Shown here: one piece after another, positions 1 through 64,000 of the stretch
How the letters are laid out: each line of letters opens with the position of its first letter
Numbering within the stretch: the first letter of the stretch is position 1
Source of the DNA: Gracilaria domingensis
Taxonomy: Eukaryota; Rhodophyta; Florideophyceae; Gracilariales; Gracilariaceae
Direction of reading: 5' to 3'
NCBI GenBank assembly: GCA_022539475.1
Contig: VCMS01000278.1
Coordinates: forward strand, 1-64,000
Length of the DNA: 64,000 nucleotides
Program-made: the position numbers and the translations under genes
The notes under the pieces: generated by a model
Seen by the model: the letters and a program-made list of their open reading frames with translations, nothing else
What the model was told of the DNA's origin: nothing
Databases searched by the model: none

Positions 1-351
1 ACTGTGACTGGTACGGAGTTTCTGCACCTGAGGAACAGACCAGGACAGGCTCAGGATAGAAAGGAGAGCGAAGTCTACATTGTCCCGGCGCCTTTTTGTA
101 TCGGGGGCTACATTAACGACGCCGGATATCATGCAGGGGATCCCGATTTATCGGAGCCCCGGTCAAACAGGACTCGAAGTGCCAATGTGCAGGTGGTGGA
201 AGCGAAGTCCGTGATACAGTTCAAGTCAGACCTTTCTAACTATGCTCTACTTCGTTGTAGAGCAGTAAGAGATATTGAGAGGGGCGAAGAGTTGTATTTC
301 AACTACGGAGAGCAGTACGCCTGGGACTGGGCTCTGACATTGGAGCAATAG
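1..351 (+). CDS. SET-domain protein, C-terminal part (truncated by window edge)
   Basis: Open from the window edge to the TAG at 349-351, about 115 codons. It ends in a SET-type signature: a motif reading CIGGYINDA, then a 50-residue spacer, then RDIERGEELYFNYG. SET proteins normally have an NHSC motif followed by a GEE-x3-DY motif, where residues bind S-adenosylmethionine and lysine. The second motif is clear here; the first is altered to YINDA. The homologue at 60650-61285 has the same YINDA, so the change belongs to this family and is not local decay. The upstream half, including the GxG cofactor motif, is off the window. The expected activity is methylation of a protein lysine, probably a histone, but this is inferred. 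The companion coiled-coil gene follows on the same strand 248 bp later. Confidence 0.7.
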   Translation, partial: TVTGTEFLHLRNRPGQAQDRKESEVYIVPAPFCIGGYINDAGYHAGDPDLSEPRSNRTRSANVQVVEAKSVIQFKSDLSNYALLRCRAVRDIERGEELYFNYGEQYAWDWALTLEQ

Positions 352-598
352 ATGAGTTCAGTACCGAATAGAAAGTAAATATGCTTGTGAGTGTTGCAGC
401 TGCCTGCAATACGCGTTGTTGTACATGTACACTGGAGCTCTTCATCTGTAACGGCGATATTTGCGACCCATTGGGCACCTCAAATTCCTAAAAAGCAGGA
501 ACTGCGGAGTCTCCCGGAATATCTGAACCATGCACCCCCCCCACCCCCTCCCCCCCTCCCCAACAATTTCGTTTCATTACCCTGTTTATCTCCACAAC
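352..598 (+). promoter_or_regulatory. Intergenic leader with a C-rich tract
   Basis: This 247-bp gap separates the SET gene from the companion gene. It contains an almost pure cytosine run at about 533-563 (G-rich on the minus strand), with blocks long enough to form a G-quadruplex, ending about 35 bp before the likely ATG at 599. No TATA box is obvious. The tract is the most likely place for promoter or 5'-UTR control of the companion gene. I saw no equal tract upstream of the right copy's companion gene. Confidence 0.35.
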
Positions 599-2996
599 AT
601 GGGTATAACGCCGAGAAAGCGAAATAGTACGCAGCGGAACAAGAGTGGACAGAAGAAGAGAAGAGCATCGGATGATACGAATCAGGCTACAAGCACCGCA
701 CTTCCTAAACGGAAGTCGTCCTCGACGAAGGAGAGAGTCAGTGGGCGTCCTTCTACAGGACTCTCTCGCCCATCTCGCAGCGGAGCGTCTTCCGGGATTG
801 CGTCAAGAATTCGTGGATCAGCGAACGATGTCGTGCCGTCAACTGCCGATAATGCAAATCGTGCATCTGTCTCTGCTCCTCAAGAAGATGAGGTAACTCG
901 GCCCAGCTGGTCAGGACAGGAGGGCATGACAACTGGAACCGAAGAGGTTAGTATGACACCAAAACCTTCATGTCCCCGGCCGATATCGAAGACCGGAGCT
1001 ACTGGGGAGCGGGTTACGCCGCCCAGTGGATCTGGACAACAAGGGACAATGACGAGAAGTCGTGAGAGCCCTAGTATATTAAGATCGTCACGTCCATCCC
1101 TGTCTTCTAGAACTGGGGCCGCTATGAATCGTATCATGCCTCGCAATGGGTCCGGACAAGGGAGAAAGACAATAAGAAATCGAGAGACAACTGATAGACG
1201 AGTTACTTTTTCGACCTTCCCCTCTTTCCAGAACGGGGGCCGTTGCAGCTCGTACGAGGCCCAATTCATCTGATATACCATGCCATGGAGGAGGACAGAC
1301 ACGGGAATTGGAGCTCGGAGCCGTGCCAAGGGTGGACACAGAATGCCTGCAGCCTCTCGTGTCTAAGGCTATGGCACATGAGGATAGTTCCGATAACGAA
1401 ATAACACCGAATCCTGCGGCATTACCGGGGCCTGTCGCCGAAGAAGCTAGGGAAATAACGGAAGATATCCAAACTGGTGTGAATTCAAGCTCTATGAACA
1501 AACCTGATCTTTTAAATGAACTGAATTGCTTGAAAGAAAAGGTTAAGACGCTACAAGAGGACTTGATGGTTCGGGGAATTCTAGTGAAGGTCGCCCAAGA
1601 GCAGAGTACGGCTTTGAAAAAGAGGCTTGAAGAGAAGGATCTAGTCATTGAAGGGCTAAGAGGGGCACTGAAACAGGAGGGAGATAGGAGTACACGTGGT
1701 GGTGAACCTGGGCAGACAGGTCGAAAGAAGCATAAAATTGAGGTGTGCGACGAGTTTCGAGGGGTTGCTCGAGCAGTGTATCACAACATGCTGACGTGGG
1801 CAAGGAGAGAAACAAGTGAGCTATGGCTCGAAGGTGGGTCGCTCACCCGAAATTGGGGTAACCGTGCCGAGAAGGTGGAAGACGCAACTGAGAGTGGGGA
1901 AGGGCTTATTGAGCCGGAGGAAGGTGGTTCATACATGGTTCCTAAAAACCCCGTGGAGCTCTTGGGCAGTTTTGGCATGTTCACACCGTCGGTAGAGGGG
2001 GGGCCAGATGCTTTGCTGAAGAAAATGGTTGAAAGCGAGTTGAAGGAGTTGAGCTGGGAAGGTATTAGAAAAGCATCTCTTACCGACAGGTGTATACTGG
2101 AACTTTGTGCAGATATGTGCCTTAGGCAGAGAATGCGGCAGACTATGAGTGACGTCGTGGGCGTTCGTGAGAGAAATACGAGGGATAAACTATTTCTGCT
2201 CCTGGGGTACGATCTGATTTGGAGAAGAACAAAGCTGGTAGAAGAGAATGCTGACGAACTCACAATGCAGTTGAAGGAAGCGCAGGAGAACATACTGCGT
2301 CTTGACGAAAATGGTGTACCGAACACTTCATGGTGGAGAAAAGCCCCATTTGTTCGTCTAAAGTACTCCAATGTGGACAATGTCGAGGATATGCGGACGG
2401 AAGATCAAGACTTGTTCTTCCGAAACCGTGTCGGGGTACAAGTGCTGAAGGAGTTTATTGGGTATGATGTGGAAGACAAGGATACGGGCACCTTTTTAGA
2501 TGGCACAATACTGTTGCTCGCACGTTTGGACGCTTGGGTGTTGACGGTTGTGAGCCTTCTAAGTACGGATGTGTCAAGGGGTGGCCAGAGACAGAAACTG
2601 TTTACAAAGAAGTTTGCCGAACTGCTACCTCTGTGTTTAAAGAATGTTCTGGGGGATGTTAGGCAACGTGTCTTGAGGACCAATTCCAGCGAGTTTCATA
2701 ATTTTGGAACGACAACGGAAGATTGGACTAAAGTTCTTGGTAATGACATGAGAGAGGCTACATTTGGATATCGAATGCCGTCGAACGGAAGACTTTACCT
2801 CACTGTGAAAGAAAAATTTTTTATTGACAGTGAGAGCCGAAGATTGGTGTCTATTAGCGATTGCTTCGTTGGTGAATGCGAGGAAGGGGATATGGAGTTC
2901 AAGGAAATGGACATGAACGATTTCGGAAGTAACACAGGATCACAAGAAAAGGCACCACAAGGTGAACATGTAGAGGATGGAGCCCTTAATGTTTAA
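599..2996 (+). pseudogene. Transposon companion coiled-coil protein, one frameshift
   Basis: Starts at ATG 599 with a basic N-terminus (MGITPRKRNSTQ), reads to about 1217, then continues in another frame to the TAA at 2994-2996, about 800 codons. The N-terminal third is Ser/Arg-rich and holds four 40-residue repeats (893-1370). A heptad-rich coiled coil follows near 1500-1690 (LKEKVKTLQEDL...LKKRLEEKDLVIEGLRGAL). A conserved C-terminal region follows, with RNWGNRAEKVE, DMCLRQRMRQTMSDVVGVR and RLYLTVKEKFF. All three motifs recur in the decayed homologue at 57.4-60.1 kb. I recognise no known domain; a DNA-binding accessory role like TNPA in CACTA elements is possible but only by analogy. The single frameshift may be a mutation or an assembly error. 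Confidence 0.65.
893..1370 (+). repeat. Four 120-bp coding repeats in the companion gene, with a one-base insertion
   Basis: The repeat anchor T-G-A followed by a V/I-T/M-x-P block falls at 992, 1112 and 1233. The first spacing is exactly 120 bp and the second is 121 bp. Each unit encodes 40 residues with a conserved SGSGQ or GGGQ core. The extra base lies between about 1217 and 1229, inside unit three, and accounts for the change of reading frame. The repeats therefore show that the two reading frames were once a single gene. Confidence 0.7.
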
Positions 2997-3183: not shown

Positions 3184-6171
3184 CTACGATAGTCTCCGTT
3201 TGGAATGACGAGGGAACGGAAGAGTGTGGTTCTTTTCATCGTTTGTAGCCCACCGTAAAGATATGCATTTCAATATGTGGTCGATGTTTGTTGCGGGGGG
3301 TAAAACCTCGAAATACCGGACGAATGCCACCTCTGGTGCGGTAAGTGCAGAATCAAGGAGAGATATTCGAATCAGAGCGACTACCTGGGCAACCCAAGTC
3401 TCTGAATCTTCTCCGTTTACCAATACAGTGGAAAACTTTGGCTTTCTACTGGGACCAAATGCTGGAGAAGCGAAGACACGTTGGATGATGGGGTATTTGG
3501 GTCGTCCCAGCTTAAGTGCCTTAGAAGACGAATCGAAGTGTTCAAGAGTCGGAACGAAACCGCCTTTCACGACGGCCGAATTCACCAGAGTTATCCTTGT
3601 CTTTTCTGGGAAGTATGTAATAGAGTGATCATCCAGTGTTTCTTTCACGAGACTGAGGAAAGGAGGAAGGGCCTGTTGACCAATTTGATCAAGAATCGAC
3701 CTTGTGTCCGTACTTGAGAACATTTCTCTAACAGCAGTCCATGTTTTTGAACTGGACATACTTGAAACACAATGTTGAAGAGCTCGTAAAGTGAAAGAAC
3801 GCCCTCTCATTGCAAACCGAGGAAGCTGTGTGGAAGTTCCTGGTAAACCTGGATTACGCTGGTAAGGAGTATTGCCATTCCATTGCTTTCTAACATGTCC
3901 GTGCTCAATGGAGCGAATAGTCTCCTCCACAGCCGTTGCTGTTCTTCTGGACGTCTTTTTGTAGTGTCTTTTAAATAGCAGGTGTGCATGTTCGTATATG
4001 CCTGCGTCGTAATACTTGATACTTCCCAGACGGCGAATTTCGTCCACGAGATGATCGAGAAGATGAAACTTCAGAGTTCCCAGTCTGGAGGGATGAAAAT
4101 CCGCCAGAGTCTTTGTTGCGGAACGCTTGAGGGCTTCAATCTCCGAGCTAAGACACAGGAGAGAGCTTTCAGTCCAATACGGGTCACGATTGTATCTGAA
4201 TAAGGTCGAGAGCAAGTCCGAGTACTGAGAGAAAACGGTTGTGATTGGGGCAACGTCCTGTTCTCCACAGCATATGTCAAAGAATGCTCCTATGAAGGGA
4301 AAGACCATGTCAAGTGCTTTGTAGTTTTTGGCCTCCAGCATTCCACGGAGACCGTCTTTCGTGAAGATACCATTCAAAGATTTGCCTTTCTCCTGCGTGG
4401 AGAAATCGATATGTAAACCTTTGGCAGGAGAATCGCGTTCTATGGCAGCTAGAATTGCGTTTGCATGGTTGAGGAGTTGGGTGCGTATCGTTCGAAATGA
4501 ACGCGATGCAGATGTTCCTATTGTGGTGCACAGGGTGTCTGACTGCAGTCTCTCGATTGTGGCCGTTTTTATCAACTTTGAGAGGCCGAGATGCAAGTTT
4601 TGTAATGGTTCAAATGAGAACAGACTGTATGGAGACAATCCCGGGATCATTCCAAGGCTTACGGAAGTTTCGAGGAACGAAGGAATGAGAGATATGGAAT
4701 TTGAACGCATCAGAGTATCCGCTTGAGATCTCCTCTCCCTCGCACGACGTGGACGTCTTTCCGCCTCGTCTTTTTGTGCATGTTGCAAGATAGCTGTGTA
4801 TGTCTTTCGGATGTTTTTCGTGTGCTTTTGAGAACGTCCGTTGAATGAGGTGGGAATAGGACTGCATAAAGATGAGCGAGGGGCTTTGCATGTATGACAC
4901 GGGATTTCCGTTTTGGTCCCATGAAGAATGGACAGAATGTCCTTAGCCTCAGGAATATCCGCACAATAACTTGCAAGCAGAGGATGGCACACTCGACTTA
5001 GTTTGTCTTCGCCGATGAACTGAAAACCTTTCTGCGTGAGATTTAGAATGGGCTCCAGGACTTGACGAAGAGATTCTTGAAGGATTTGCATCCTGGACTC
5101 GCGTAGAGACTTGCTAGAAACAAATGGCATTGCGTCTGCTTCAGATGCGGAAACCTCGATCAGTGTGGTAGGGAAGTTTGCGACTACTGTGAGGTCATCA
5201 CGGATACACTTACGGCGAAGCTGGTCGGAGAAGTTGAGAAATATGAGGTGAAGAGGATAGGCGGTAACCGATGTTTGCTTTAGAGTTGTTGAAGACTTAT
5301 CGGTGTATACCTGCAGAAGACCTACGAAAGATTCACTGTAACTTATTTCTTGGAAGTACCACACTATTCTACTATCCAAAGAGCCCATGACCATTTCTTT
5401 AAGTTTTGAGGTGGCGTCTCTTGCGAGAGAGCCGGACATGGGGTGAGATATTTTCGTGGAGTGGGTCTGAGGTATAGGGTGGAAGAATGTGTTTTCGTTG
5501 TTAGCCAACTGGAGCTGTTTCACAAGTGTCTGAACGGGGTCTCTCGTGTAGAGGGTGGCGCTGAACTTACATCCTTCTGGCGAGACAGTTCTGCGATTGA
5601 AACCGTCCTTTGAGGCGTATCGTTCGAAAATGGCGTTCTTCAGTTTTGTACAGCGCTTGGAACTTGTTATGGTCTCGTTGAATCGCTTTTGCGAGAATCG
5701 CGGGTCCCGAAGTAGCCCAATTAGCTCGTCCGCCTCACGATGACCAAGGTTGGAAGCTACTGAAGCCAGACAAACCGTGAGATAATCCATATGCAAATCA
5801 CCAAGGGCCTCCTCAGAAGGCACTGGGCGGGAACTGCTTCCGTGTTCTCGCTCTAATGACGCGAGACCCGCGGAAGGAGAAACACAATGCGAAGTGTCCG
5901 GAATGGGAGGGGCGCACGGAGTGGGGTCGACGATGTCCTCGGACACTGGAGGCTCGAGAAGGCGACAAGGGGCAGTGACCGTTTCGGAAGATGCGGGCGC
6001 GGGCGCGGAAAGCTTGAGACGCTTGCTTCTCCGAATGGCCCGGCTATTGTCGTCTTCCAGCGCTGCTTTCAGACGAAACGGGCAATGGTTGACATGCTGT
6101 TGAAGAGATAAGACTCCTCGGCGAGTAACGAAGGGGCACCCACGCTTCTTATGTGTACAGTAGTAGACCAT
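3184..6171 (-). CDS. CMC superfamily (CACTA/Plavaka-like) DDE transposase, intact
   Basis: A 995-residue protein from ATG at 6171-6169. An upstream TTG at 6255 keeps the frame open, but the right copy also begins at the equivalent Met, so 6171 is preferred. The N-terminus has a Cys/His finger-like segment (CTHKKRGCPF then QQHVNHC). The catalytic region has VYTDKSSTTL near residue 291 followed by YPLHLIFLNF, resembling the first catalytic Asp and the YPvYltigN block of Plavaka/Tnp2 transposases. ADIPEAKD follows near residue 405, then a CxxC (425-428). A His-rich block (LKFHLLDHLVDEIRR) lies near residue 704. The gene converges on the companion gene, with 187 bp between their stops. The family call is by motif recall, and the KDZ group is the main alternative. 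Confidence 0.75.
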   Translation of the reverse strand: MVYYCTHKKRGCPFVTRRGVLSLQQHVNHCPFRLKAALEDDNSRAIRRSKRLKLSAPAPASSETVTAPCRLLEPPVSEDIVDPTPCAPPIPDTSHCVSPSAGLASLEREHGSSSRPVPSEEALGDLHMDYLTVCLASVASNLGHREADELIGLLRDPRFSQKRFNETITSSKRCTKLKNAIFERYASKDGFNRRTVSPEGCKFSATLYTRDPVQTLVKQLQLANNENTFFHPIPQTHSTKISHPMSGSLARDATSKLKEMVMGSLDSRIVWYFQEISYSESFVGLLQVYTDKSSTTLKQTSVTAYPLHLIFLNFSDQLRRKCIRDDLTVVANFPTTLIEVSASEADAMPFVSSKSLRESRMQILQESLRQVLEPILNLTQKGFQFIGEDKLSRVCHPLLASYCADIPEAKDILSILHGTKTEIPCHTCKAPRSSLCSPIPTSFNGRSQKHTKNIRKTYTAILQHAQKDEAERRPRRARERRSQADTLMRSNSISLIPSFLETSVSLGMIPGLSPYSLFSFEPLQNLHLGLSKLIKTATIERLQSDTLCTTIGTSASRSFRTIRTQLLNHANAILAAIERDSPAKGLHIDFSTQEKGKSLNGIFTKDGLRGMLEAKNYKALDMVFPFIGAFFDICCGEQDVAPITTVFSQYSDLLSTLFRYNRDPYWTESSLLCLSSEIEALKRSATKTLADFHPSRLGTLKFHLLDHLVDEIRRLGSIKYYDAGIYEHAHLLFKRHYKKTSRRTATAVEETIRSIEHGHVRKQWNGNTPYQRNPGLPGTSTQLPRFAMRGRSFTLRALQHCVSSMSSSKTWTAVREMFSSTDTRSILDQIGQQALPPFLSLVKETLDDHSITYFPEKTRITLVNSAVVKGGFVPTLEHFDSSSKALKLGRPKYPIIQRVFASPAFGPSRKPKFSTVLVNGEDSETWVAQVVALIRISLLDSALTAPEVAFVRYFEVLPPATNIDHILKCISLRWATNDEKNHTLPFPRHSKRRLS

Positions 6172-6536
6172 GGGAAGAAGAAATGAACGAGAAACGACCA
6201 CAAAGACTGCAAGGGAAGGGCGTTCGAAGGGAGAAGGAGGTCGAGCGACAGTCAATATCGACGTCTTGCTCAGAACGGAGAATATATTTTGAGTTTAAAT
6301 CACGTGCTTTCGTTCAAAAAAGGAACGTAGGTACACGTCGACCTCAACACAAGGGTGTACTTCTCGTATTATCTACCACTGGTTATAAACCTGTGGTTTC
6401 CCAACGTTGTACGCTGTACACTTGTCCAATCTCGCACAGAAAAATAAATCTCTTCCCTCCGCCGCCGCCGCCGCCCGTCCGACGTCCGACCTTTTGTTAC
6501 CGTCGTGATCCGTGCCATCCTCGCGTTCTACTCCGC

Positions 6537-7832: not shown

Positions 7833-8816
7833 CATGAGTGGAAAACCCACCAGTATTTACTGCACAGCGGTTCTGGACGACCCAAGCATTTATCTGCAAA
7901 TTTTGAAATAATTGATCTCGATATTTTTTCAAAAAATTTACTGGACGACCCTTGCCAATTTCTGGACGACCCTCGCCAAAAACTAGCATCTGCAAGAGAC
8001 AGACGGAGCGATGACCATTCGCGTTCGAACATTAAGTGGCCGTGGGAGTCGGACGAAGGGGTACGGTCGCACAAGAAGTTAAAGAGTGTGTTCGAGGAGG
8101 AGGAAGAAAAGGACGAGCTGGACTGGTGGGCCACTGCAGTGCTGGGGTGTGCCGGAGCGATGGGGACGCGCATGGGAGAGAACGTGGGTCGACTGACGAA
8201 GAAGGTGACAGGGTTCGTGGTAAGGGAACTGAGGGGGATGAAAGAGGAGCAGAAGAAGATGATGAAACGCATTGAGAATCTGGAGGGGAGCTCGAAGGAG
8301 GTGAATGGGAGGAAGAAGGGCGGGGTAAGGGGTGTGGAGGGAACGCCGGTAACTCCGGCGCCGAAGACGAAGATCGTGAATGGCGTTGGGGTAGGAGTGT
8401 GCATCGGAAGCTAGGACGAGTATGCGAGAGACTTTGTACCGGCAACGGATAGTTTTGGGGCGGATGAGGTGATGGAGGGAGAATTGGTGAGGAAGAGAGG
8501 TCTGAAGAGGAAGGTTGGCGATAGGAGGCCGATCCAACCGAGGAGTGTGGGGGTAGAAGAGGATGAAATTCAGCCGAAGGTGGAGAACAAGAAAGGAAAA
8601 GGGGATAGTAAGAAGAGGACACGGGTTGGGTTCAGGACTGTTCCGAAGCCGGTGTGGAAAGGGAGCAGTGTTGTTGGATACGAGGAGAAGTGGAGCTGGG
8701 AGGATGTTGTGGAGGATGAGGAGGAAACCGTTGAGAATGATGATGGGAAAGAATTTCGTACGCTATCATTCGCGGATGTGGAGGTAGAGGAAGGAGATGA
8801 AGGTGCTTTACTTTGA
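7833..8816 (+). pseudogene. Hypothetical charged protein with one in-frame stop
   Basis: One frame is open from just after the TAG at 7830 to the TGA at 8814-8816, except for a TAG at 8412-8414. There is no good ATG at the upstream end. The product has a short duplicated LDDP-x-Q motif near the start (two CTGGACGACCC repeats about 7940-7975). An acidic patch (FEEEEEKDELDWW) and a helical, probably coiled-coil segment (REL-RGMKEEQKKMMKRIENL) follow, then a Lys/Arg-rich and finally an acidic tail. I do not recognise the family. The frame keeps its charged character on both sides of the stop, so the two halves were probably one protein. Confidence 0.45.
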
Positions 8817-51050: not shown

Positions 51051-51059
51051 ATATTCTAA

Positions 51060-52400
51060 TAAGAAGGTGTCTGGCAAGTTCCTTCCTTAAAATGATTATC
51101 ATTATCAAATTCTGCTCGAGGTGAATATTTATCCCAGTGTTTTTGTGAATAGCTTATGTAGCAGCGAAGCACTGTAATGTTCTGAAAGCTCTTTCATGTT
51201 GTGCGTCTGTTTGCCGGTAGAAATCTGTTGACAAATTCAGGGTTTTTTTAATTTCTTCACCAGTTTGATCCAAAAATGTCCAGTAAACTTAGGGTCTCTG
51301 TCTGACATTGTTTTTTTGGTATTCCATGATTTTTATAAATTTTCTAAAAGAAGGCTTCAGCGGTTGCTTTGGCCTTTAAATTATCCTTTAACGCAGTAAA
51401 ATGCGTTCGTTCTGATAATTCATCCTCGACAATTAAAATGCCTGAATATCCTTCGCCTGTTCTTGGTTGTCTAAATATAAAATTCATGGATAAAACCTCC
51501 CATTTCTTACTCAGTGGAGGATATGGTCTGATTAGTCCAAATTGTTTCGGGCTCAAAGTTTTACAAGCTGGCAATCATAAAATTTCCCAGCGAAACTCTC
51601 AAGTTCCATTTTCCTACTTAAGAATTTATCATTGTTATATACTTCTTCTAGCTTCTTCAAAGTTCTTTTGTGCCGTGCATTATCATAATATTCATTAGGT
51701 TTCTAATCATAATTTACGATACATGATGAGTGTTCTTATCTTTTCTTGAAAGAGCAATAGCCACGGAATTAAGCTTCACTTTCAAATATAAAGTTCATAA
51801 TCAAACTGTTGCAGAAACTCAACCCAACTTGTTTTCTTGACAAACGTATCTGGGTTTCAGGGGTTTTAAGCCGGTTTGATCCCTAACTATTGTAAGTTTG
51901 GAGCCATGCGAATATGCTCTTCAAGTTTTGAATGCATGTATAGTGGCTAGTAGTCCTTTCGTTTGTTGAGTATTATAGTTCAGCCGGGTCTAATTTTCTG
52001 CACGCATATGCGACTTAAAAGCATCCTTTCTCGTCTATCTGGGTAATGATTTCACCTATTACAGTTGTTGATTCATCAAATGTTAATTCATATGATAATG
52101 AAGGATCAGCACATCTAAGTATTGGGGTGTTGCTTAATTCTTCTTTCAATCTCTGAAAAGCTTTTTCTTCCTTTTCTTACCAATGAAAATATTTGATTTT
52201 CTTCGTCAAATACGTCATTGTCGCAAGGCAAATTCTTTTACGAATCTTCTATATTAGTTACTAGTCCCTAAAAGCTTTCGACCTCCATGACATTAACCAG
52301 TTTTCTCCAATCTTGTATTGCTATTGTTTTATTTGGCTTTGTCCCTATCGTCTGTGTTCTCGTTTGGCTAGTTAGTAGTCCAAAAATGCTGGTTTCAAAA
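51060..52400 (-). pseudogene. Ty3/Gypsy pol relic (reverse transcriptase end, RNase H, integrase)
   Basis: Read on the minus strand with frameshifts. At about 52300-52100 is an SF-x-GLVTNI-type block (usually SFLGLxxYYRRF) and AFQRLKEELSNTPILRC. At about 52080-51950 are FDESTTVIGEIITQ and AYACRKLDPAEL, the RNase H start. At 51574-51344 comes the integrase core start, KWEVLSMNFIFRQPRTGEGY and IVEDELSERTHFTAL (usually MDFI...VDRLSKMAHF). At about 51310-51150 are SDRDPKFTGHFWIKL and YRQTDAQHERAFRTLQ, the second Asp and the Glu region. The order is that of Gypsy pol. Multiple stops and frame changes make it a fossil, and no LTRs are visible. Confidence 0.8.
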
Positions 52401-52449
52401 TTCTAGTTTCAAAATGCTAGTTTTTTTGTATGTTAAATTGCACTTTCTG

Positions 52450-54340
52450 TAGTTTCCATTCGGAGGAAAAACTAGAGAAAACTACGACTAATGAATGATT
52501 CTGAGGCATGCTGAAGTATGCTATGTTTTTGATACTAGACATCTAAAACTAGCAAGTATGAAAGATGGCAGAACCGTACTTCCAGTCCTCCACTTTTGCC
52601 AGTGCTCTAGGTGAGTGAGCCCATTCGGGTGGTCTACCAACGGACCACATGGTAAGCCCAGAGAAAGGACCAGTCTGGACCGAACGCAGCCAGCCTCCGA
52701 GAATACTACGGCTGGAACATTCATTTCCTGCAGTACCCTGTGAGCACCACCACCGCAACCGCATATCCTCAAAACACCATGATCAAACCCAGATCTCATC
52801 TTCACAACTTCTTCATCGGCTGTTGCATGTAATTTCTTCTTTCGCACAGTCCACATACCTCAATCGCATCACCACAGAAGCCGTAAACGGACACAAAGTT
52901 AGTATTTATACTCAAAACAACCAAGAAACGTCTCTTCGATACATGAACCTCTTATCTCTCATTCTCTCTCAGTCTCAATCACCGTCCACACACTTTCATC
53001 GCGGCACCGCACAGAAACACACACTGAAACACAGTTAATACCCATAGCGCACACACAAACCTTTCAATGCGATATCTTCCTACCTTTTCAAATCCTCCAG
53101 TTCACGTATCCAAACACACCTTCACGTCCCTATTCAAGAATCAAGACCCCGCAAGAAGCAGTAATGAAACACAAAGTTAGCAATCAGATAATACACTCGA
53201 ACTTCTTCTCGATTCATTCGTGTTACATACGTCTCCATGTCTTCCAGTCCGCTAATGCGACACATTCATCCTTCACTGCTTCACGATCCATGTTTCTTAG
53301 AGTTTTGACCCATGTTGAATAGGAAAGTGAACGTTCGCGTTCCTATTCAACATGGATCGAAATTATGCAAGCAGTAATTGGACACACAGTTAGTACATAT
53401 ACAACAAAGGTAAAACTCTCCTCGTTAAGATATTGTTACATACCTCTCCATGTCTTCCAGTCCTGATAATGCGACACCTTCACGGTCTACCAGTCCACCA
53501 TCTACCCTCAATGCCCCCCCTCTGCCATAGTTTCCAAGCCAATTCAATGGACCACCCAAAGTTCACTAAGCCAGAACTAAAGCCAAACCCAGCTGTTAGG
53601 CATTAGAACCTCGCTAGTTAAGTTCTACAAGCTCACCAGTGAGAATTGTAGTACATTTCTCACTCGAATCGCTTCTTAGAGCGTAATTAGTGACGTACCT
53701 TACGAGCGCGCACATGCGTTCCTCAAACCTTTGCTCGCTCTCCGTAAATCGCTCACGTCACAAGGGGTCAGCAAGAACTAGATCCCATGACAAGCGTAGA
53801 TAGAGTGTCATCCGTACCAGTATGTCACTCGCATGATCTGCATAATAGTCTTTCGCTCGTTATTCGTACATTGCTCGAATCGAACTAGGTCAGCAACAAA
53901 TAAGATCGCACTAAGAGTCGACACCGTTACGTGTTTCACGTACCTGTATGGAACTCGCATGTTCTGGAAGATATTGTGTCGCAGAGAATTGCCATGATCA
54001 GAGCTCGCATTGCACTGGTCAGGCCCGTGCCATGGCACTTTCTTGACTTCTCCAGTGCAGCACTATCTCCGTCTAGTGTAGAGTTCACGCCGGCCGCAAA
54101 GTATGGTCTCAAAAATTTAGGAATGTTTTCAGTTTTTCATATTTCCTTCCCTCCTCGACGTACCAATATCATATCGTGATGTACGTAAATCGTCACGTGC
54201 ATGGCGCCGATTCGAGTCTCCCTATATTCTGTCCCACACGGTACGGAAACAATTTTTTTACAAGTTGCAACACTGCACCTTAGACCTCCGCTCCTCACCT
54301 CCAACGTTCCAAACAACCGCCTCCCCCCTCCCCGCCCTAC
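52450..54340. other. Upstream region of the right transposase with diverged direct repeats
   Basis: A phrase GTAA-x3-GACACA-x-AGTTAGTA occurs in variants near 52880, 53020, 53160 and 53372. The block TTGTTACATACxTCTCCATGTCTTCCAGTCC occurs in parts near 53222 and 53440. Spacings of 130-215 bp are irregular. A perfect hairpin lies at 53310-53355. The position upstream of the transposase matches the hairpin/repeat zone of the left copy, so these may be subterminal repeats of the right element. I could not match the sequences of the two zones. Confidence 0.4.
53310..53355. repeat. Perfect 16-bp-arm hairpin
   Basis: CCATGTTGAATAGGAA at 53310-53325 is exactly complementary to 53340-53355, around a 14-base loop that itself contains GAACGTTC. 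Confidence 0.75.
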
Positions 54341-54346
54341 TGCATC

Positions 54347-57300
54347 ATGTACATATGTTGCTTCCCCCACTACGCGTTTCATACAGACTCCATCGTTTCC
54401 CTCGCACAACATCAGAAACGTTGCAGGCACCGGCATGACCAAAACTCTTTTCTCACTCCTGCAGCGCCCCGCGGTTCCTTCTTCCCCCCCCGAACGAAAC
54501 GTCGCCGACTGAGCACTACCAAACCCCTTCTCTCTTCTCCCTCCAACCGCCCCTCCGATAATGTAGCACTCGCCACTGACGAACAGTATGAAGAACAGCA
54601 GCTCACTCTCTCCATACGTTCTTCTGACGCAGCACATCTCGCTACACCACACCCCCACTCAATTCTCAGTCTCTCTCCGTAGGTTCCGGTCATCCCCTCT
54701 CTCCGCCCGCTTCAAGTGATAACATTCACAATCTCGTCACATACATTTCCTCCATCGCCACGAAACTCGGAAAGCGGTCCGCAGACGAGCTTATCAACTT
54801 TCTCAGGCAGTCCAACTTTCCCCCCTCTGTTCCAAACCTCCATCATCTCTGCTTCTGAGTGTCTCAAACTACACTCCAAAATCTTTGAAGACACCATGAG
54901 CTCCATCGGCTTCACGTCCACAACCATTCACGATAACGACCGTCAGTGCTCTGCTACCCTCTATGTCACGGACCCCATTGAAGTCCTTCAACAACAACTT
55001 CGGCTAGCATCCCATGAGAACGCCTTCTTTCACCCAATTCACCACGCCTCCCGCACAGGAACCGACGCATTTGCGCATTCCATGGCCTCCAAACTCGGAC
55101 ATGACGTCGTTCCCGCTGTGAAAAAGCATATCGCACATTCTGCAAACCCAGGAGTCATCTGGCATGATACCACCACTACTGGTATAGACTCCTTCATCGG
55201 CATGCTTCAACTCTACTCCAATAAGTCCTCCACCACGCTAAAAAGCTCCTCTGTCACATCATACCCCCTCCATATCACGTTTCTCAACTTCAAGGACTCT
55301 TTCTGCAGAAAATATATCACACACCACCACACTCTCGTTGGCTACATTCCCACTTCCTTTACATCCTTCTTCCCCGATTCTTCCTCCACCGACACCGATT
55401 CTTTGGAAATTGGCCCGTTTTCGTCGACCATAACTCGCGTTGTGCGCATGGAGCTCGTCCAGAAGTCCTTGGAAACTATACTCAAACCTCTGTACGACAT
55501 ATGCGAAAAAGACTTTCCCCTTCAGATACGCCAAGGGAGTCGTTCGTCATTGCCATCCCATCATCGCTAACTATAGCGCTGAAATTCCCGAAGCAAAGGA
55601 CATTCTCGCTGTCCTCTACGGCACGAAACCAAACAAGCCCTGTCACAGATGCCTTATCCTTCGTTCACAACTCAACGTCTATCAAGCCATTCTCAAGGAG
55701 CGAACAGTATCCCACACCTCTGAAACGAGAAAGAAACACCAAGATCTACTTGCCGGCGCTTAACAGGCTCTGCTCTCCAGCAGACCTCGAGTGGAAAGGA
55801 CTCTGAAAAATGAAGCTGTTGAACTACTCCAAACCACCTCCTTATCCACTTACAAGTCCTTTCTCGAATCATTCCCTATGCTCAATGTCTCCGAGCTGCT
55901 CACTCCTTACTCAATCTTTTCCTTCGAGCCCCTTCATAATTTTCATCTCGGAATCTCCAAGCTCATCAAACTCGCCTCGATTGAACGCCTCAAGTCGGAT
56001 TCGCTTCACACTTCTGTTGGTTCTAAGGGAAACCGAGATCTTTCAAGACCGTTCGAACTTTATTCTCAGCCACGCCAACGCCATTCTCGCCAAAATTGAG
56101 CGCTCCTCTCCAGCATCTGGACTTCACATCGACTTCTCCACATCCGAAAAAGGAAAACCTCTCAACGGTTTCTTCACGACAGACGGCATCAAGCGTATGT
56201 TGGAAGCTAGGGACTACCATTCTCTTGACATGGTCTTCCATTTCATTTGCGCTTTCTTTGACGGCTGTTGTGGCGAGGAATCCTCCGCCCCTATTACCAC
56301 CGTGTTACATCCTACGCTTACGTCGTCAACAACGTCCTTCGCTACAATACCACTCCAGAATGGACGGAGCTCGCATAGCTGCGTTGGAAACTATGATTAA
56401 GAACTTCAAGTTTCACACAGTCTCCATTCTCGGCCCGTACTAAGCCTCTGACTTTTGTACTCTTAAGTTCCACCTCCTTGACCACATCATTCCAGGCATA
56501 CGGCGATACGGAGGCCTACACTTCGGCGATGCAGGCGTGTACGAACATGGTCATCTTCTCTTCAAGAACCACTATCGTCGAACTTCTCGAAGGCGAACTA
56601 CAGCTCAAAAGGAAACGGTGAACGCCATTCAAGAGTCACAACACTATTTCAATCCCTTTCGGTCAGAAGTCACTTCTCTTTCTACTCCAACTCTCGCAGC
56701 CCTTCCATCAACCGCATTCCGGCCATGGTTCGCAACAGTAACTCCTTCTAACTCTTTGACATCATCACAGCTGACAAGTACCTACGATCGCATCCACAGG
56801 TATCTTCTTCGGCACTGGCAGAACCTTTCTCGACAACCACACTGCAGTTCATCAACCAAATATCTCGCGACGCTCTCACCTCCTTCCGCACCCTTTTTAT
56901 AGAAACTGTTCAACAGCTGAAGAATCCTCACGACATCAAACTCACTGTCGTTAATTCTGCATACGTTATTAGCGGCTTCTGCCCCTATCTCGATGATTAC
57001 GATCGGGATCTTCGATGCATAATACTGAGGAAGCTCGATGTACCACTATGTGAACACATCTTCGCTACGACCTCCTTCGGACTTTCCAGGTTGCCTAAGT
57101 TCTCCACGGGTCTCGTGCACGGAGCACCCCCTCCCAACTGTACGTTTTCCACAGCGTGAATATGCAAAGTATTTGCATTGCTTTGCGTCCAGGACAAGAC
57201 CTTAGACAACTCTGAATCAGAGCTCGCTTTCGTTCGTTTCGTCGAAGTGACAGAGCCCTTGGACAACGCTGATGAAACTCTGAACTGTATATCACTGCGT

Positions 57301-57350
57301 TGGGCCACCGAAGACGAGCATGATTATACCGTGCATCCAAGTACGTCAAG
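54347..57350 (+). pseudogene. CMC-like transposase, decayed copy
   Basis: A true ATG at 54347 starts the Cys/His finger-like N-terminus (MYICCFPHYAF, AQHQKRC). Homology to the left transposase follows across frames: TSTTIHDNDRQCSATLYVTD and LQLYSNKSSTTL then YPLHITFLNF (54716-55570); CHPIIANYSAEIPEAKDIL (about 55537-55630); LLTPYSIFSFEPLHNFHLGI (about 55890-55960). The end reads AFVRFVEV and CISLRWATEDE (about 57230-57320). At least five frame changes are needed. The first catalytic Asp in the left copy (YTDKSS) is Asn here (YSNKSS). It is convergent with the companion gene, as on the left. Confidence 0.8.
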
Positions 57351-57405
57351 GATGAAACCTCGTTCTGCTACGGTCTCTCCTTGGTTCGGGCTTATCCCGT
57401 TCTCC

Positions 57406-60092
57406 TCAATCAAAGGCTCCATACACGTCATTCGCCAAAACTACCCTGCCCGTCCATTTTTCCGTGCCCTTCATTGGGAATTCCATCGTTTCTACATTAA
57501 GAGATTCTATCGTAACCCTCGAGCCCACATTCATCATACTCGTACTACGTAACATTCTTAACATAAATTGTTCATGTACTTCAGATATTCTCCTCCTCGT
57601 CTTCCATCCCGTGCTCATCGTCCACGCCTCCCCCGTCTTGTCCCCACTTTGTTCCCTGACATTCGGATTACAATCGATCACATTAGTATCTCGGATTTCA
57701 TCGATTGCTCTTATAGGGGAGTATACCCTATCCCGTTGGTCACAATACCAAATATAGCAATCCAATACGGCTCCGAGATGTTCCCTAATCTCTTCCATGA
57801 ATACATCTTCTCGAACAGCTAGATATAGCTTCTCTTTAGACGGTATCCAGTATGCGAGTTCCCACACGGTCATGATTTCCATGGGGTGGATCTTGAGCTT
57901 TTGAGTCGTTCCTGAACTCCGTTCCAAACTTCTGCTCCATTTTCATTCGTACAGCCATCAGTATAACTTCCAACGCCTGTGCAACATACTTTTCGAAAAG
58001 GGTGGAGAACAACACCTGCCTTTTACCGCCCCGCCTCCTTCAAACTCTGTAGCTCGAACAACTGACGCGATCCAAGCGTCTAGACGCGCCAACTGCACTA
58101 TTGTGCCATCGACTGGGTCCTTGTCTCCCGCATTTCTCAAATCCTTTTGGTTCACATCGTAACCAGAAACCTCCATAAGACCTGTAGGCCTCGAAAGTTT
58201 CTAAACAGCAAGTCTTGCGGCTTGCTCTCTTCGCCACGGATTTTGAACGCGGAAAATGATATGTCCTCTTTTTTCGATGTTCTCCATGTGGAGAGAATCT
58301 CACACCCTTTTGCATCTAGTGGCAGAAGCTTTTCCCGTAGTTCCTCCGCTTGTTTTAGGTATATGCTCCTCTCCCTCTTATGTGATGGTGTCTTCACCAA
58401 CATGTCATACCTTAGCCCGATCAACAACTTCTCCTTCGCATGGCGTTTCCGAACCCCCACCGCATCGCTCAAGGCCTGCTTCAACCTCTTCCGTAAGCAC
58501 ATGTCGCTGGTCAGCTGTCTGATGCAGTCTTCTTCCATCTTCATCTTCCGGATTGATTACCAACCAGGTTTCATTATCCCCGTCTCCACGATTTGCATCA
58601 GCAAGTTATGACCCGTACCACGAAACCGATGGAGGATAAGCTCTCATCTCCATCGCGACCTCCATTGGACAGCGTGGAACAATCTCTTTCCCATCAACGA
58701 CCAGGAAACTGTACTCAGTCTCAGGTCCGAGTGTCTCACTTCGATTCCCCCAGTTTCTCGCCGGTGAACTCATCTCGAAGCAGAATTCCCTTGTCTCCTC
58801 TTTCGCGTATCGCAGTATGGATTCGTATACTGTCTTCGCTACCTCTAGATACGCGTCGTTCACATCAATCTCGTATCTTTTCCTTTCCCTGTGCGAATCA
58901 CGCTCCCTTGTGTTGCTCCTCGCCTCAGTCCCTCTCGAAGTGATTGTATTAGAAGATCTTGTTCCTTCACCTTTAGCTCTAGTTCCGTCACGCGTTTCTG
59001 TGGTATTCTTACGCTCATCTTCAGACTTTCATTATCCTCTGTTACTCGAAAGAGATCCGCGTTCAAGTCTCCAATCTTGTCCAACAGCTTGTAGCGTGGG
59101 GTTACGCTTTCATCTTTTTCACCTTCTTCGTCTACACCAGCAAGAGCACGAGATGGAAGCGTAGGGTTAATTTTCCAGCGACCTGCCACATTACGACCCC
59201 TTTCGTTCCATGTCTCTCTTGATAATTCTGCCCCCACCTCTGTCCGTTCCCTACGCATCTCGCCAAAGGAAATCGAGGTCGAACCCTTCCTTCTTATTTG
59301 GTTGAACCTTTTCTGCGATTGTACGACCGTACGAAGAGCAGGCTGTATCTCCTCTACTTCTTCCTCGTTCGTACTACGTTCGGGATGAATGGAATCGTTT
59401 CCATTCCAGAAACTCTTCCTCGACGGTGCGGGCGCACGTATAGAGGAATGTATATTATCGACTTCTTCCTCGTCACTAGCACGATCGGCATGAAAGGAAT
59501 TCTTCCGATTTTTGATCTCCCTTCGCGATGTTGCCAGTGCACGTACATTGGGCTGTACATCATCGGCCTTTTCTTCGTCCCTACTACTTTGAGGTTGAAT
59601 GGAATCGTTTTGTAATGCGCCCCATCCTACCAGGTGAGATTGCTCTTTCATTTCTGTCCAACTCTTCTTCGATGACATTGTTTCTCAAATTTCTTGTCCG
59701 TGTTCCTTTCGCTCTCGTACGTCTCTCGCCACCATTCTCTTCCACATTCGCCTCATCGATTATTCTTGGCACTTCCTCTGCAGCCATGTGTTGGGGAACC
59801 CCCCTCCCACTGAGCTGTGATGTGGTAACACTACTTTGCTCTCTGTCACTTCCGTTGGGGTCGTACTAACACCCAGCTTCGGTTTCGGTTTTGCCTTCGA
59901 AACCCGGAGTGCTGACTTAGAACCAGACTTCTTTCCAGTAAGCTCCACACGGCGAGCTCGTCGTCGAGTACTTCTTCGGGTCGCGGCAGGCGGAGGGTTC
60001 TTGCGCTTAGCGACGCCAATACAATATCGCAGGATTCTTTGGGATCCCTTCGTCTCCCGGTCGTCTGCGTTGCTGAACCTTTGTGGAGCCAT
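57406..60092 (-). pseudogene. Companion coiled-coil protein, decayed copy
   Basis: Begins at ATG 60092 (MAPQRFSNADDRETKGSQ) with a basic N-terminus (RRSTRRRARRVELTGKK). Two frame changes occur near 59770 and 59690. The 59678-58860 segment has about three repeats of 34-38 residues around NDSIxPExSxxEEExxxIQP, in the same place as, but unlike in sequence to, the left copy's 40-residue repeats. The coiled coil (LDKIGDLNADLFRVTEDNE; VTELELKVKEQDLLIQSLRE) and the conserved part follow: ARNWGNRSETLG (about 58750), DMCLRKRLKQALSDAVGVRK (about 58500) and KLYLAVREDVF (about 57840). Several further frameshifts occur. Confidence 0.75.
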
Positions 60093-60645
60093 TATTGCCC
60101 TTCAAAATCGCGTGAAAAGGAAGGGATTATGTTCGGATTATAGATTGAGGAAACCGAAGCTTCTGGAGTTCTGCTCGTACTACGAGTAGTGTGGGTTAAA
60201 AAAGCGGAAGGGGGCGAGCTTTGAACCCTTTGCAGCAGATGATGGAGACCTTCAGTCGTTCTTGAGCCCTGAGTGAGCTGGTCCATTCCTGTTGCAGACA
60301 TTCATACCAATTTTCCACATTTCCAATGGCCGTATTTTTCATTGGCTATGTTCTATGTGCCAGGTCCGTCTGACGGGTCCCTTCATGATGAAGGTCGGCT
60401 GTTCCTTGGTCCAACCTCTGGGGTGTGAGGTGTTAATTCTGAGGTGTTGCTTTTGAGGTGGTAGCTCTGGCCGCTGTGGAGTATTCTTAGTAGCTCTTTG
60501 CTTAGCACGACAATGTGTCCTTGTGCCACGTTGTCGATTCCTGCAACAATAGGTTTACTGGAATGATGAATGCATTCAATAAATGACGCAGTAGTTATGA
60601 AATACACTACAACAGTTTGTAATACGTCAAACTATAAAGCATGGG
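60093..60645. other. Gap between SET and companion genes, right copy
   Basis: About 550 bp with no supported gene, longer than the 248 bp seen in the left copy. It should hold the companion gene's promoter. Confidence 0.35.
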
Positions 60646-60649
60646 AGAA

Positions 60650-61440
60650 TTACAAATACCTCTCCCATGAACAGCTGGGTCCATAGTCTACGTACACTTC
60701 TTCTTGTTCATGAATATCCCTTGTAGCCATCACCAACAGTTGTCTATAGCTTGCCAGTGTACCCAATGTGGTAGCTTGATGCTCGGAGGGGTGTCGAATA
60801 ATAGTGTTTGGTAAGCGGCCTTGGTAAGGCTCCATCTCGGCCAAATCCTTCTCACCGTTCCCATCCCGGTACGAAGCATCATTGATGTAGCACGCTATAC
60901 AGAAAGGAGCGGGTACTACCCAGGCAATTGCAGTATTGATTTCGGAATCATACTGAGGAAGCGTGCTGTACATCTGCCCTTTCAGCTTCACTTCCATGCA
61001 ATACCTCTTGAAACGAGAAACGGTGGCACCGAGCACTCCGCTTCCGTATTCCATCTGTTTTGCATTGCGTCGGCTTATGTCATGATATACCAATGTCCCA
61101 TAGAAGTACCCGACAACCTCTCCTTCCGAGAACGATCTACTATTGAACACTCCATCTTCACTTATGGAGTGTTCGATGTTTGATTTCTTCCTGTACAACC
61201 ATAAACCTGCTGCTTCAGTGGCGAGCAAAGTCTGTACATCCATCGTCTCCAATGCGCCTTGGAGATTCAGAGGCCACTCGTGCACCGGTTTCTCCTTTTG
61301 CTGAGCGATGAGACTCGGTTCTGCAAAACGTTGCGATGTAGGAATTGATATGAAACGGGAAACATTGGTATCGCGGGAATCCTTTCCGTGCGGTCCATAT
61401 ACGCGAGGTTCTTTGCTTCCCTTCCGGGGACTTTGTCTGT
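60650..61440 (-). CDS. SET-domain protein
   Basis: The frame is open from about 61440 to the stop at 60650. No ATG is found at the upstream end, and the first in-frame ATG lies just before the domain. The SET domain begins AAGLWLYRKKSNIEHS and FSEGEVVGYFYGTLVYHD (the usual G-x-G-V/L-x-A ... GE-x-IGEY-x-G part). It continues with PFCIACYINDASYRDGNGEK in place of NHSC, and ends in ATRDIHEQEEVYVDYG. It shares YINDA and the RDI-x-EE-x-Y motifs with the fragment at 1-351. Predicted role: protein-lysine methylation. It lies between the methyltransferase and companion genes on one strand. The uninterrupted domain contrasts with its broken neighbours. Confidence 0.75.
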
Positions 61441-61499
61441 ACTAAATACGAGGCTTGTACGACATCATTACTGACAGTTGACAGTTATTCTTGCGTTGA

Positions 61500-63784
61500 A
61501 CTCGTTACCCCAAACCTTCCTCGCATACATCACTACAGCATTGTGTTCAGCATGAGCGAAGCACTGCTCATCCCTCTCAAATCCAATAAAGCGTCAGGGC
61601 TCTTCCATGCCCATGCACGCCAAGGCACCGGAAAATGTTCCACTATAGGGATCAACCACAACGTCCCCGGGATTTGAGAACCTGGCAATGAGTTCCTTTA
61701 GCAGTGCCCTCGGTTTCTATTCGGGGTGAACCTGAACCGAGTGTATTTTGGAACGCTTCTTTAGTCCCCAACGGAGTCCTTCACAAGCCTCCAGATGCGG
61801 AACCTGATCGATAATGGAGTAATGCCCGGGGTACTGCGTGAGAACGTAGTTGAAATTTTTGTAGTTCACCATCACCTTCTGCTCCTCGTACGCGTTTACA
61901 TTCCGGACTTCGTGCACGGCATACTCGGTTGCAGAGAACAACGGTGTTGTGTTCTTTCCGGGGTTGTTCAAAGTGTGCGTACGAGAGGGAATGAATTGCA
62001 TCGGTGTGGGGTCGACAAAGAACGAAGCACTTTGCCACCCCAGAACATTTTCCGATTTGTGCCCAGGTAGAATCTCCTCCCAGTCCGCGAACTGTTCGAT
62101 AGTACAGAAATTATAAAATGACGGCCAGGGCGAAGCATTGAGGCCATCATTTCTGCAGTATTAACTATATCTTCGTCTAGAAGCTCATCATGCTCACTGT
62201 CACGTATACCATAAGATGGGTCCGTGAGTACGAGTTGAACATTGCTCTCTAGGGAATTATCGGAACGGTACAGTGTACCATGAGCCTCCACTAACTTTCC
62301 ATAACCAATGCAATGCATAGAGAACTGTTGCTCCATGTTCTTTCTGACCGCACCGAGAGCCTTCGTCGTCCTTACATCGGCAAAGTCGTGAGGTGGAAGA
62401 ATACCATCAGGAAAATTAGAAAGGGGGTGCGCTCCATCGTCGTCATCATCCGTGTCGTCTATGACAATGACATCCACCCGACCCGGGTCTGCACCGGATG
62501 TCTTACCGGATGTTTTACCCACCGCCCTAGCCATCGGTCTGGAGGAAATGGTTCTCTGTGCCGTAACCGTATCCTCAATCTTCACCGTGACCATGTTGCT
62601 TCCTTCCTGACGTCCTGACAGAGTGGCCTGGGATGGCTGCTGGGAAGGTCTCAGGTTTAGCTGGACAATAGCGGTACGAAGAGTAGCCAAATACTCATCC
62701 GAGAAAGCATCAAAGCGAGAAGGAAACCGTGTCTGAAGTTTGCTTCGAAAGCCTTCCAGCAGTTCCCACTTGGTAGTAGCGGACATTTTGTACAGAAATC
62801 CGTTTAAAACACCCTTGTTCAAATCGGACAGGAACTCTCTTGACAAATCCCTTAGTTTGGTATCGATATCATCCGAAAGGGTGTGAACCCAAGGCACAGT
62901 GGCGTTGACCTCTGTGGTTGGCTTCACTTCGATCCCCAATGTTTTACACACCGATGCTGGGCTGTATCCGGAAGAACGGGACTCAATTGCGCTGAAAGAA
63001 ACCATCGCTTTCTTCATGGCAAGAAACGGTAACAGCATTTGTTCTGCGTCACGAAATCCAAGACTGGAAGCAAAAGAATCCCATCCTAGACATACCATTT
63101 GCACAGCATAACCCATCCGCCTTACGTGCGCTTGGTTTGACATGAAGAAACCATCAACAAACGGTATCTGTCTGGGAGAACCAGTTGCAGTCCTCGCCTT
63201 CTTCGCAACTGCGAGTCGCCTCTCCATATTGATACGCTTCACTAGAGATAGATAGAGTAACTGCTGAAAACGAGTAGCAGGCTCAATCCGGAAGGTAGTT
63301 TTCTTCGTCTGCTTGGATCCGGGACCGTGCTCTTTGAATAAGTCATTCCAGAACACACGCCCCATAAAAGAATTCCCGCCATCCATATTCTTATCCAAAC
63401 TCCATTCGAAAAGATTCCTCACCCGACGATCTTCACTCTAGTCATCCACGTCAATGATACGGACATACTTGTTGACCCGACTTATGAACCTAACATCGGT
63501 ACTTATCTTCACCAGCTCCTGCGGCGTATAGTTCGCGTACGTGCTATTCGTAGCATCAGTGAGAAATTCCCCTGCACAAGCCAGACTGGCACGGTTTGCG
63601 ACAGCGTACTCAACGAGAGCCGTGTATCCAACCTGACGAGGGGAACCAATGCCGCCTCGAGACGCCGCAAACGAGTCTCTCAGCTCGAGAAGTATGCTGA
63701 AAAAACGAACGACCGCGTCTCCATGATATCTTTCTCACCGGAGCTAGACTGCGTAGATGCCATGGAAGATGCGGTAGTCGACAT
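61500..63784 (-). pseudogene. DNA N6-adenine/N4-cytosine methyltransferase (N6_N4_Mtase type), interrupted
   Basis: Likely ATG at 63784-63782 (MSTTASSMASTQSSSGEKDI). A frameshift at a T6 run leads to VVRFFSILLELRDSFAASRG, and the frame runs on past a TAG at about 63434 to 61968. The catalytic motif IV is LTDPSYGI (near 62220; family norm DPPY). After a frameshift near 62010 the fold resumes (NYVLTQYPGHYSIIDQVPHL). A TAG at 61717-61719 follows, then motif I, NPGDVVVDPYSGTFSGALAC, near 61650 and FIGFERDEQCFAHAE after a TGA near 61607 (probably from CGA). Motif IV before motif I is the beta-class order. Such enzymes methylate adenine N6 or cytosine N4 in DNA. The N-terminal 350 residues have no recognised domain. 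Confidence 0.75.
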
Positions 63785-64000
63785 CGCTCTGCTGTTAAGA
63801 CCACAAAGGGCCTGTTTCCGATGGGCGCCATGTAACTCTCGCAAGAACTCGCGAAAGCGGAATAGACGGTGGCGATGAAACTCGCTGGAGTAGTTCTCGA
63901 AAGAGTAGTAGACGGCGGTGATGAAACATTATTCTAAATTCGTATTTGAGCGGGTGTTAGTCGTACGCAGGAGGGTGTGAACAGGGTTGCGAGAGCGGGT
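63785..64000. other. Upstream of the methyltransferase gene
   Basis: No supported gene. A short ATG frame on the minus strand (63831-63610) overlaps the start of the methyltransferase gene and has no motifs. An imperfect direct repeat GGCG(A/G)TGAAAC occurs near 63871 and 63915. Confidence 0.35.

Follow-up and report, generated by a model that had tools for sequence, protein, structure and literature searches.

The 64,000-base stretch of Gracilaria domingensis DNA analysed here (the window, positions 1-64000 of contig C278, which ends at 71645) contains, on its right side, part of a very large DNA transposon of the Plavaka (CMC-like) type, which is present in multiple copies in the genome. 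The element combines a transposase gene and a companion gene with two enzyme genes, one encoding a DNA methyltransferase fused to a SET domain and the other a protein that joins a ParB-like domain and a putative dioxygenase. We consider the best explanation, at a probability of about 0.6, to be a Plavaka-like family of giant terminal inverted repeat (TIR) transposons whose four-gene set would mark the element itself and thereby act against silencing. The genome searched comprised 77.9 Mb in 680 contigs. The guanine-cytosine (GC) content of the window is 47.4%; passages of a published report give 46.6-49.9% for Gracilaria and a genome of 78 Mb for G. domingensis (PMC10388701).

Gene set and recurrence

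The copies fall into three families with one plan: A, to which the right copy belongs, B, and C, to which a left copy at the start of the window belongs. An earlier note, made from the window alone, had described four genes lying together in the right copy; the transposase is on the forward strand and the companion, SET and methyltransferase genes are on the reverse strand. The note had also described a left copy with SET, companion and convergent transposase in the same order and relative strands, its fourth gene falling off the left edge. This anatomy is borne out by our analysis (Table 1). The label "CMC-type" holds in a broad sense, the nearest family being Plavaka (PF18759), which the right transposase remnant matches with E 2.6e-7 in the open reading frame (ORF) 54716-55570, above the curated cut-off. 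With the left-copy proteins as tblastn queries, the right copy is found with E 5e-88 over 54830-57333 for the transposase and E 3.5e-42 over 57628-58884 for the companion. The description of the companion as coiled-coil comes from the earlier note, and the coiled-coil match is weak here (E 0.016). The SET domain of the right copy matches PF00856 with E 3e-7 (60650-61285, reverse strand), the methyltransferase lies within 60659-63716 on the same strand, and an intact 1118-residue fusion protein of family B matches the gene with 58% identity in tblastn. The right copy is decayed, its transposase split across several frames and its methyltransferase-SET gene broken.

Ten copies of the right element were fetched, three of which were later extended. 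The gene order in the copy on contig C36 is transposase (+), companion (-), methyltransferase-SET (-) and ParB-like/dioxygenase (+), and all four genes occur in the same order and orientation in six of the ten fetched family A copies. Among the incomplete ones, C461 is without the transposase side, C184 is cut short where its contig ends and C137 has a family C element inserted in it; the family A ParB-dioxygenase of C109 lies outside the fetched stretch. The methyltransferase catalytic motif is DPSY in the window and C461, DLSY in C18, and DPPY in C36, C132 and C109, and the motif pattern found no match in the other five fetched copies. C184 is 97% identical to window positions 50990-62399, including the flank to the left of the element, and on this alignment represents a duplicated segment or an alternative haplotype contig.

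Genome-wide co-occurrence, a check that the earlier note had proposed, was assessed by searching with the separate proteins and merging fragments; the counts are lower bounds and likely include duplicate contigs. The SET domain lies just downstream of the methyltransferase on the same strand at 85 of 93 methyltransferase loci (the remaining eight are without SET within 3 kb), and the ParB gene lies divergently upstream at 54 of the 93 (39 are without ParB within 10 kb). The dioxygenase follows ParB at 60 of 75 family A and B loci, with none within 4 kb at the other 15, and no other arrangement of these three pairs was seen in those loci. When a dioxygenase is sought up to 12 kb from the methyltransferase, the usual orientation is seen at 51 loci and a different one at a single locus, where the nearest dioxygenase is on the same strand; 41 loci have none. 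Three methyltransferase rows of 31-40 residues were excluded from these counts, and all rows of the other tables were kept. Fifteen of the 112 methyltransferase search rows share the bit score of another row (e.g. C36/C460, C84/C505, C324/C571, C132/C383 and C110/C440); some copies may therefore be duplicate haplotype contigs, and the counts are not independent events. Within these bounds, the enzyme genes co-occur across the genome in a single order, and their link to the transposase rests on the fetched copies, nine of ten of which have one. A 501-bp probe adjoining SET gave 40 scored matches, self included, among 62 candidates. Chance is excluded as the cause of the shared arrangement by these 40 matches and by a gene order that dozens of loci keep unchanged.

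Family C was sampled through the best 55 of 914 ParB candidates and the best 77 of 825 companion candidates. Among these best-scored matches, all 13 co-sampled companion-ParB pairs have the same arrangement; a sampled SET lies upstream on the same strand for 11 of the 77 companions and divergently upstream for 6 of the 55 ParB loci. In two of the 13 pairs (C169 and C106) the gap between companion and ParB is only 0.5-1.2 kb, too small for a methyltransferase-SET gene, and therefore shortened copies exist. A search of the protein database with the companion gave two distant matches with uninformative names.

Ends and extent of the element

The earlier note placed the right element at 54347-63784. 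Its extent is larger: homology among copies begins abruptly at window position 52349 in four of the ten fetched copies (in one of the four, C6, 5 bp further in) and runs past the window, and with C36 it extends to the end of contig C278. A 10-kb element is ruled out by this span. The left end of the C18 copy, CGTCTGTGTTCTCGTTTTGCTAGTT, has inverted matches at the right ends of two copies, an exact one in C36 and one that needs 3 edits in C110. As controls, 199 of 200 random 25-mers need at least 6 edits against C36 and one needs 1; against C110, 199 of 200 need at least 5 and one needs 2.

The TIRs enclose all four genes in C36, the only copy with both ends, where the element spans 22,512 bp and has TTG on either side, a possible target duplication seen in this single case. 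The C36 flanks form a retrotransposon reading frame that is open across the rejoined flanks; no uninterrupted copy of that retrotransposon was found among the fetched loci. The transposase-side end of family C, CGTCTGTCTCTTGCAGATGCTAGTT, is similar to the family A end. In C137, a family C element is inserted in the family A methyltransferase gene (position 10815 of the oriented copy, stretch L026), and this nested insertion supports the family C end as real.

Two further arrangements were seen in family A. On C489 (L013-L014) two copies head in opposite ways with their transposase sides facing and about 600 bases between the homologous parts. A stretch that separates the ParB-dioxygenase gene from the right end contains a hydrophobic ORF (L030 7630-8499 in C36, 290 residues; C278 70249-70881, reverse strand), which has no Pfam match and by eye resembles a membrane protein; this stretch is about 75% identical between C36 and C110, against about 91% elsewhere in the element.

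A methyltransferase-SET fusion

The earlier note spoke of a pair of enzymes, a DNA methyltransferase and a SET methyltransferase. Both domains are present, and in intact copies they form one fused protein; the second enzyme gene of the element is the ParB-like/dioxygenase gene beyond the window. The fusion is read from stop to stop as single ORFs of 1118 residues in C12 (family B) and 1055 residues in C257 (family C), and in C157 (family A, 1121 residues) the same open frame is listed for both parts. Two neighbouring genes are refuted by these frames. The intact family B and C ORFs match N6_N4_Mtase (PF01555) with E 1.4e-14 and 4.5e-15, and SET (PF00856) with E 2.6e-6 and 3.4e-7, above the cut-off. 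Across 16 sequences the DPP of the methyltransferase motif DPPY/F is invariant, as is N978 of the SET domain, and Y1041 is nearly so; we take N978 and Y1041 to be catalytic SET residues. The nearest solved relatives of the methyltransferase are adenine enzymes, and by its sequence it is a bacterial-type amino-methylating enzyme, which probably acts on adenine N6.

Comparable fusions exist outside this genome, as judged from domain matches. A search with residues 440-1055 of the family C protein found 25 matching proteins, 19 of which have both Pfam domains in a precomputed list; the only named one of the 25 is the "adenine specific DNA methyltransferase" of Chondrus crispus. A viral origin of the fusion was considered and rejected as a lead: at least 69 relatives among 600 listed viral pattern matches all align to the methyltransferase part (residues 507-792) and none to SET, and the ten whose ORFs were read are stand-alone enzymes of 225-319 residues.

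A ParB-like protein with a putative dioxygenase domain

Divergent from the methyltransferase-SET gene lies the gene for a protein in which a ParB-like domain is joined to a putative 2-oxoglutarate/Fe(II) dioxygenase. In C296 (family C) it is one ORF of 1308 residues, and in C434, C140 and C61 (family B) open frames of 1326-1327 residues are listed for both parts. The ParB part matches the ParB/sulfiredoxin-like fold by sequence or fold, and an alignment of it gave no useful match against Pfam and PDB. The dioxygenase assignment is putative and comes from a single motif, HxD...H...R, conserved across the three families, which we assume to be that of 2-oxoglutarate-Fe(II) dioxygenases. No dioxygenase profile, including TET/JBP in Pfam, matched; the predicted structure has a pLDDT (predicted local distance difference test) score of 31; the whole protein has no match among 7992 scored candidates of the protein database; and the dioxygenase profile found no relative among 33 pattern matches in viral contigs.

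In family C, a haloacid dehalogenase (HAD)-hydrolase-like gene follows the dioxygenase on the same strand at 17 of 22 loci. Other orientations occur at 4 of 13 loci relative to the nearest SET (within 14 kb) and at 5 of 15 relative to the companion (within 16 kb), some of which may reflect neighbouring copies. Such genes were read at L038 4228-5184, L037 3508-4464 and L037 2382-3449. The first has SSVDETL or SSVDGTL in the two copies read and its paralogue SDIDGTL, at what is presumably the position of the HAD nucleophile. Judging from these motifs, the first gene may have lost its nucleophile residue.

Divergence and selection

Full-length methyltransferase matches of family B are about 61-65% identical to A; the two were split by identity, and intermediate copies (70-76%) exist. 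The left copy, which represents family C, shares about 38% identity with A in its SET domain. Copies of family C are numerous: the best 77 of 825 companion candidates are at 88-100% identity and a further gene gives 125 matches at 93-100%.

The codon comparisons between A and B indicate purifying selection on the enzyme genes. For the methyltransferase-SET gene the proportion of nonsynonymous differences (pN) is 0.23 against a saturated synonymous proportion (pS) of 0.75 (1088 codons, C132), and for the ParB-dioxygenase gene the ratio of nonsynonymous to synonymous rates (dN/dS) is 0.15-0.17. This selection argues that the element has retained its enzyme genes since families A and B diverged. 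Between C and A, pN is 0.39 for the transposase and 0.43 for the companion, and pS exceeds 0.80. Comparisons of copies from one family give 0.10-0.86, a spread that decay of many copies after their insertion would produce.

The left copy and other features of the window

The 116 SET residues of the left copy are 99% identical to the C257 fusion protein (E 1.9e-68), and the left copy and C257 DNA are 97% identical over 805 bp. In many other copies the companion is a single open frame of roughly 800-870 residues, and of the two left-copy ORFs, 530-1273 may be its N-terminal part. A 1553-residue ORF at 31573-36234 (forward strand), with an RVT_2 match above the cut-off and an integrase core match slightly below it, is by these domains a Copia-type retrotransposon unrelated to the transposon family.

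Table 1. Coordinates of the element features on contig C278 (window positions unless stated).
Feature	Position	Strand	Details
SET end of left methyltransferase-SET gene	1..348	+	C-terminal 116 residues; remainder lost at contig start
Left companion gene	530..2993	+	ORFs 530-1273 and 1308-2993, in different frames
Left transposase	3184..6255	-	1023-residue open frame; PF18759 E 4.3e-16, above curated cut-off
Left element terminus, transposase side	7976..8005	-	Inward reading CGTCTGTCTCTTGCAGATGCTAGTTTTTGG; identical end abuts family A sequence in C137
Left TIR of right element	52349..52373	+	CGTCTGTGTTCTCGTTTGGCTAGTT; homology begins here in four of ten fetched copies (5 bp further in for one)
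Plavaka-family transposase gene, decayed	54284..57333	+	Several frames; Pfam, tblastn and ORF pieces
Coiled-coil companion gene	57406..59678	-	ORFs 57406-57927 and 58860-59678
Methyltransferase-SET gene, broken here	60650..63716	-	SET 60650-61441; methyltransferase and N-terminal part 61612-63716
Element continuation past window	63717..64000		Homology to other copies up to contig end 71645
ParB-like/dioxygenase gene of right element	C278 65792-69377	+	Beyond window

Discussion

Self-marking of the element's own DNA and chromatin would fit this anatomy. We suggest that the fusion protein would mark element DNA and nearby nucleosomes at one place, and that the ParB-dioxygenase would be directed to element DNA, where it would remove or alter the methyl mark. 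Together, the two enzymes could hold new copies in a chromatin state that permits transcription and transposition. Passages of PMC12695648 associate N6-methyladenine with transcriptionally permissive chromatin in several eukaryotes. A bolder form of this proposal, which we put forward tentatively and rate below even odds, is that the element carries a complete and portable epigenetic system. One protein would write both DNA base and histone marks, and a DNA-guided dioxygenase would erase or convert the base mark, so that the chromatin state would be set independently of the host.

Other roles for the enzymes have to be weighed against anti-silencing. Methylation might instead act as a transposition switch, with the transposase reading methylated or hemimethylated ends and the dioxygenase resetting their state. 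Dam methylation times the transposition of IS10 in this manner, the enzyme genes share element ends with the transposase, and the methyltransferase is of the bacterial amino-methylating type; such a switch would leave the SET domain without a role, and we think it unlikely. Somewhat less likely still is self-restraint, in which the fusion would limit copy number by repressing older copies through DNA and histone marks. In passages of Rodriguez et al. (PMC8885841), a rotifer bacterial-type amino-methyltransferase is tied to SETDB1-type silencing through a loop between N4-methylcytosine and H3K9 methylation, and the SET profile here scores best to EZH2 and KMT5A chains. However, none of the matches to EZH2, KMT5A and KMT2 is strong enough to establish the substrate, and family C, abundant and with near-identical copies, does not look restrained.

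The putative dioxygenase beside ParB in A and B, matched in C, could also be read together with the methyltransferase as a path that ends in an oxidised or hypermodified base, and not as a means of adding and removing a mark, a reading that we find improbable, the dioxygenase being assigned by motif only. Least probable of all is that the element picked up the enzyme genes from its host as mere cargo and makes no use of them: Plavaka-flanked giant repeats of Amoebidium carry clusters of other genes in the passages that describe them (PMC11244446), family C has HAD-hydrolase-like genes and some copies are without the methyltransferase-SET gene, but the gene set and order are constant in three diverged families and the enzyme genes are under purifying selection between A and B.

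Single ingredients of the element have precedents, TET/JBP in fungal Plavaka elements and SET in oomycete transposons. The fungal TET/JBP-bearing elements, as described in passages of Kojima (PMC12730594), share with those of G. domingensis a Plavaka transposase and a 2-oxoglutarate-type dioxygenase gene (putative here) proposed to act against silencing; their target duplications of 2-3 bp may have a counterpart in the TTG that flanks one copy here. In contrast, Pfam does not recognise the dioxygenase here as TET/JBP, a ParB-like domain is joined to it, the element has a DNA methyltransferase-SET fusion in addition, and the ends are CGTCTGT..ACAGACG, unlike TGT..ACA (PlavakaA) and CATCA..TGATG (PlavakaB). 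The difference in ends therefore points to a further lineage within or near Plavaka. The same paper cites oomycete elements, HarbingerS and MuDR, that are likewise DNA transposons with a SET methyltransferase; they belong to other transposase superfamilies, and the citing passage mentions no DNA methyltransferase fusion.

Mobile elements that encode their own DNA methyltransferase are also reported from dinoflagellates and charophytes, where retrotransposons have captured C5 cytosine methyltransferases (PMC5890265); here the vehicle is a DNA transposon and the enzyme an amino-methylating (N6/N4) one. Many of the Amoebidium giant repeats encode tyrosine recombinases that have database matches only in distantly related eukaryotes, dinoflagellates or red algae among them, and the passages on these repeats describe neither a methyltransferase-SET nor a ParB-dioxygenase protein (PMC11244446). 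The bdelloid N4CMT is likewise a bacterial-type N6_N4 methyltransferase that is coupled to chromatin in a eukaryote, but in the passages describing it (PMC8885841) it is a host enzyme with a chromodomain and the motif SPPY, whereas the enzyme here is a multicopy transposon gene with DPPY/DPPF and a SET domain. The combination of all parts was absent from the mainly open-access literature searched, which is weak evidence of absence. Work by Iyer and co-workers on TET/JBP elements in fungi and on adenine methylation in eukaryotes may bear on novelty. A paper on Gracilaria sex chromosomes (PMC12502185) mentions neither Plavaka nor a methyltransferase.

Transposons are the usual targets of DNA and histone methylation, and here a transposon carries a fused candidate writer for both marks, while its divergent gene encodes a candidate eraser. 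Such an element would make it testable how transposons evade or determine their own silencing, in a genome that holds many young and old copies. It would also provide a route for bacterial-type amino-methylation into eukaryotic chromatin, and the Chondrus protein annotated as an adenine-specific DNA methyltransferase may be of the same methyltransferase-SET kind.

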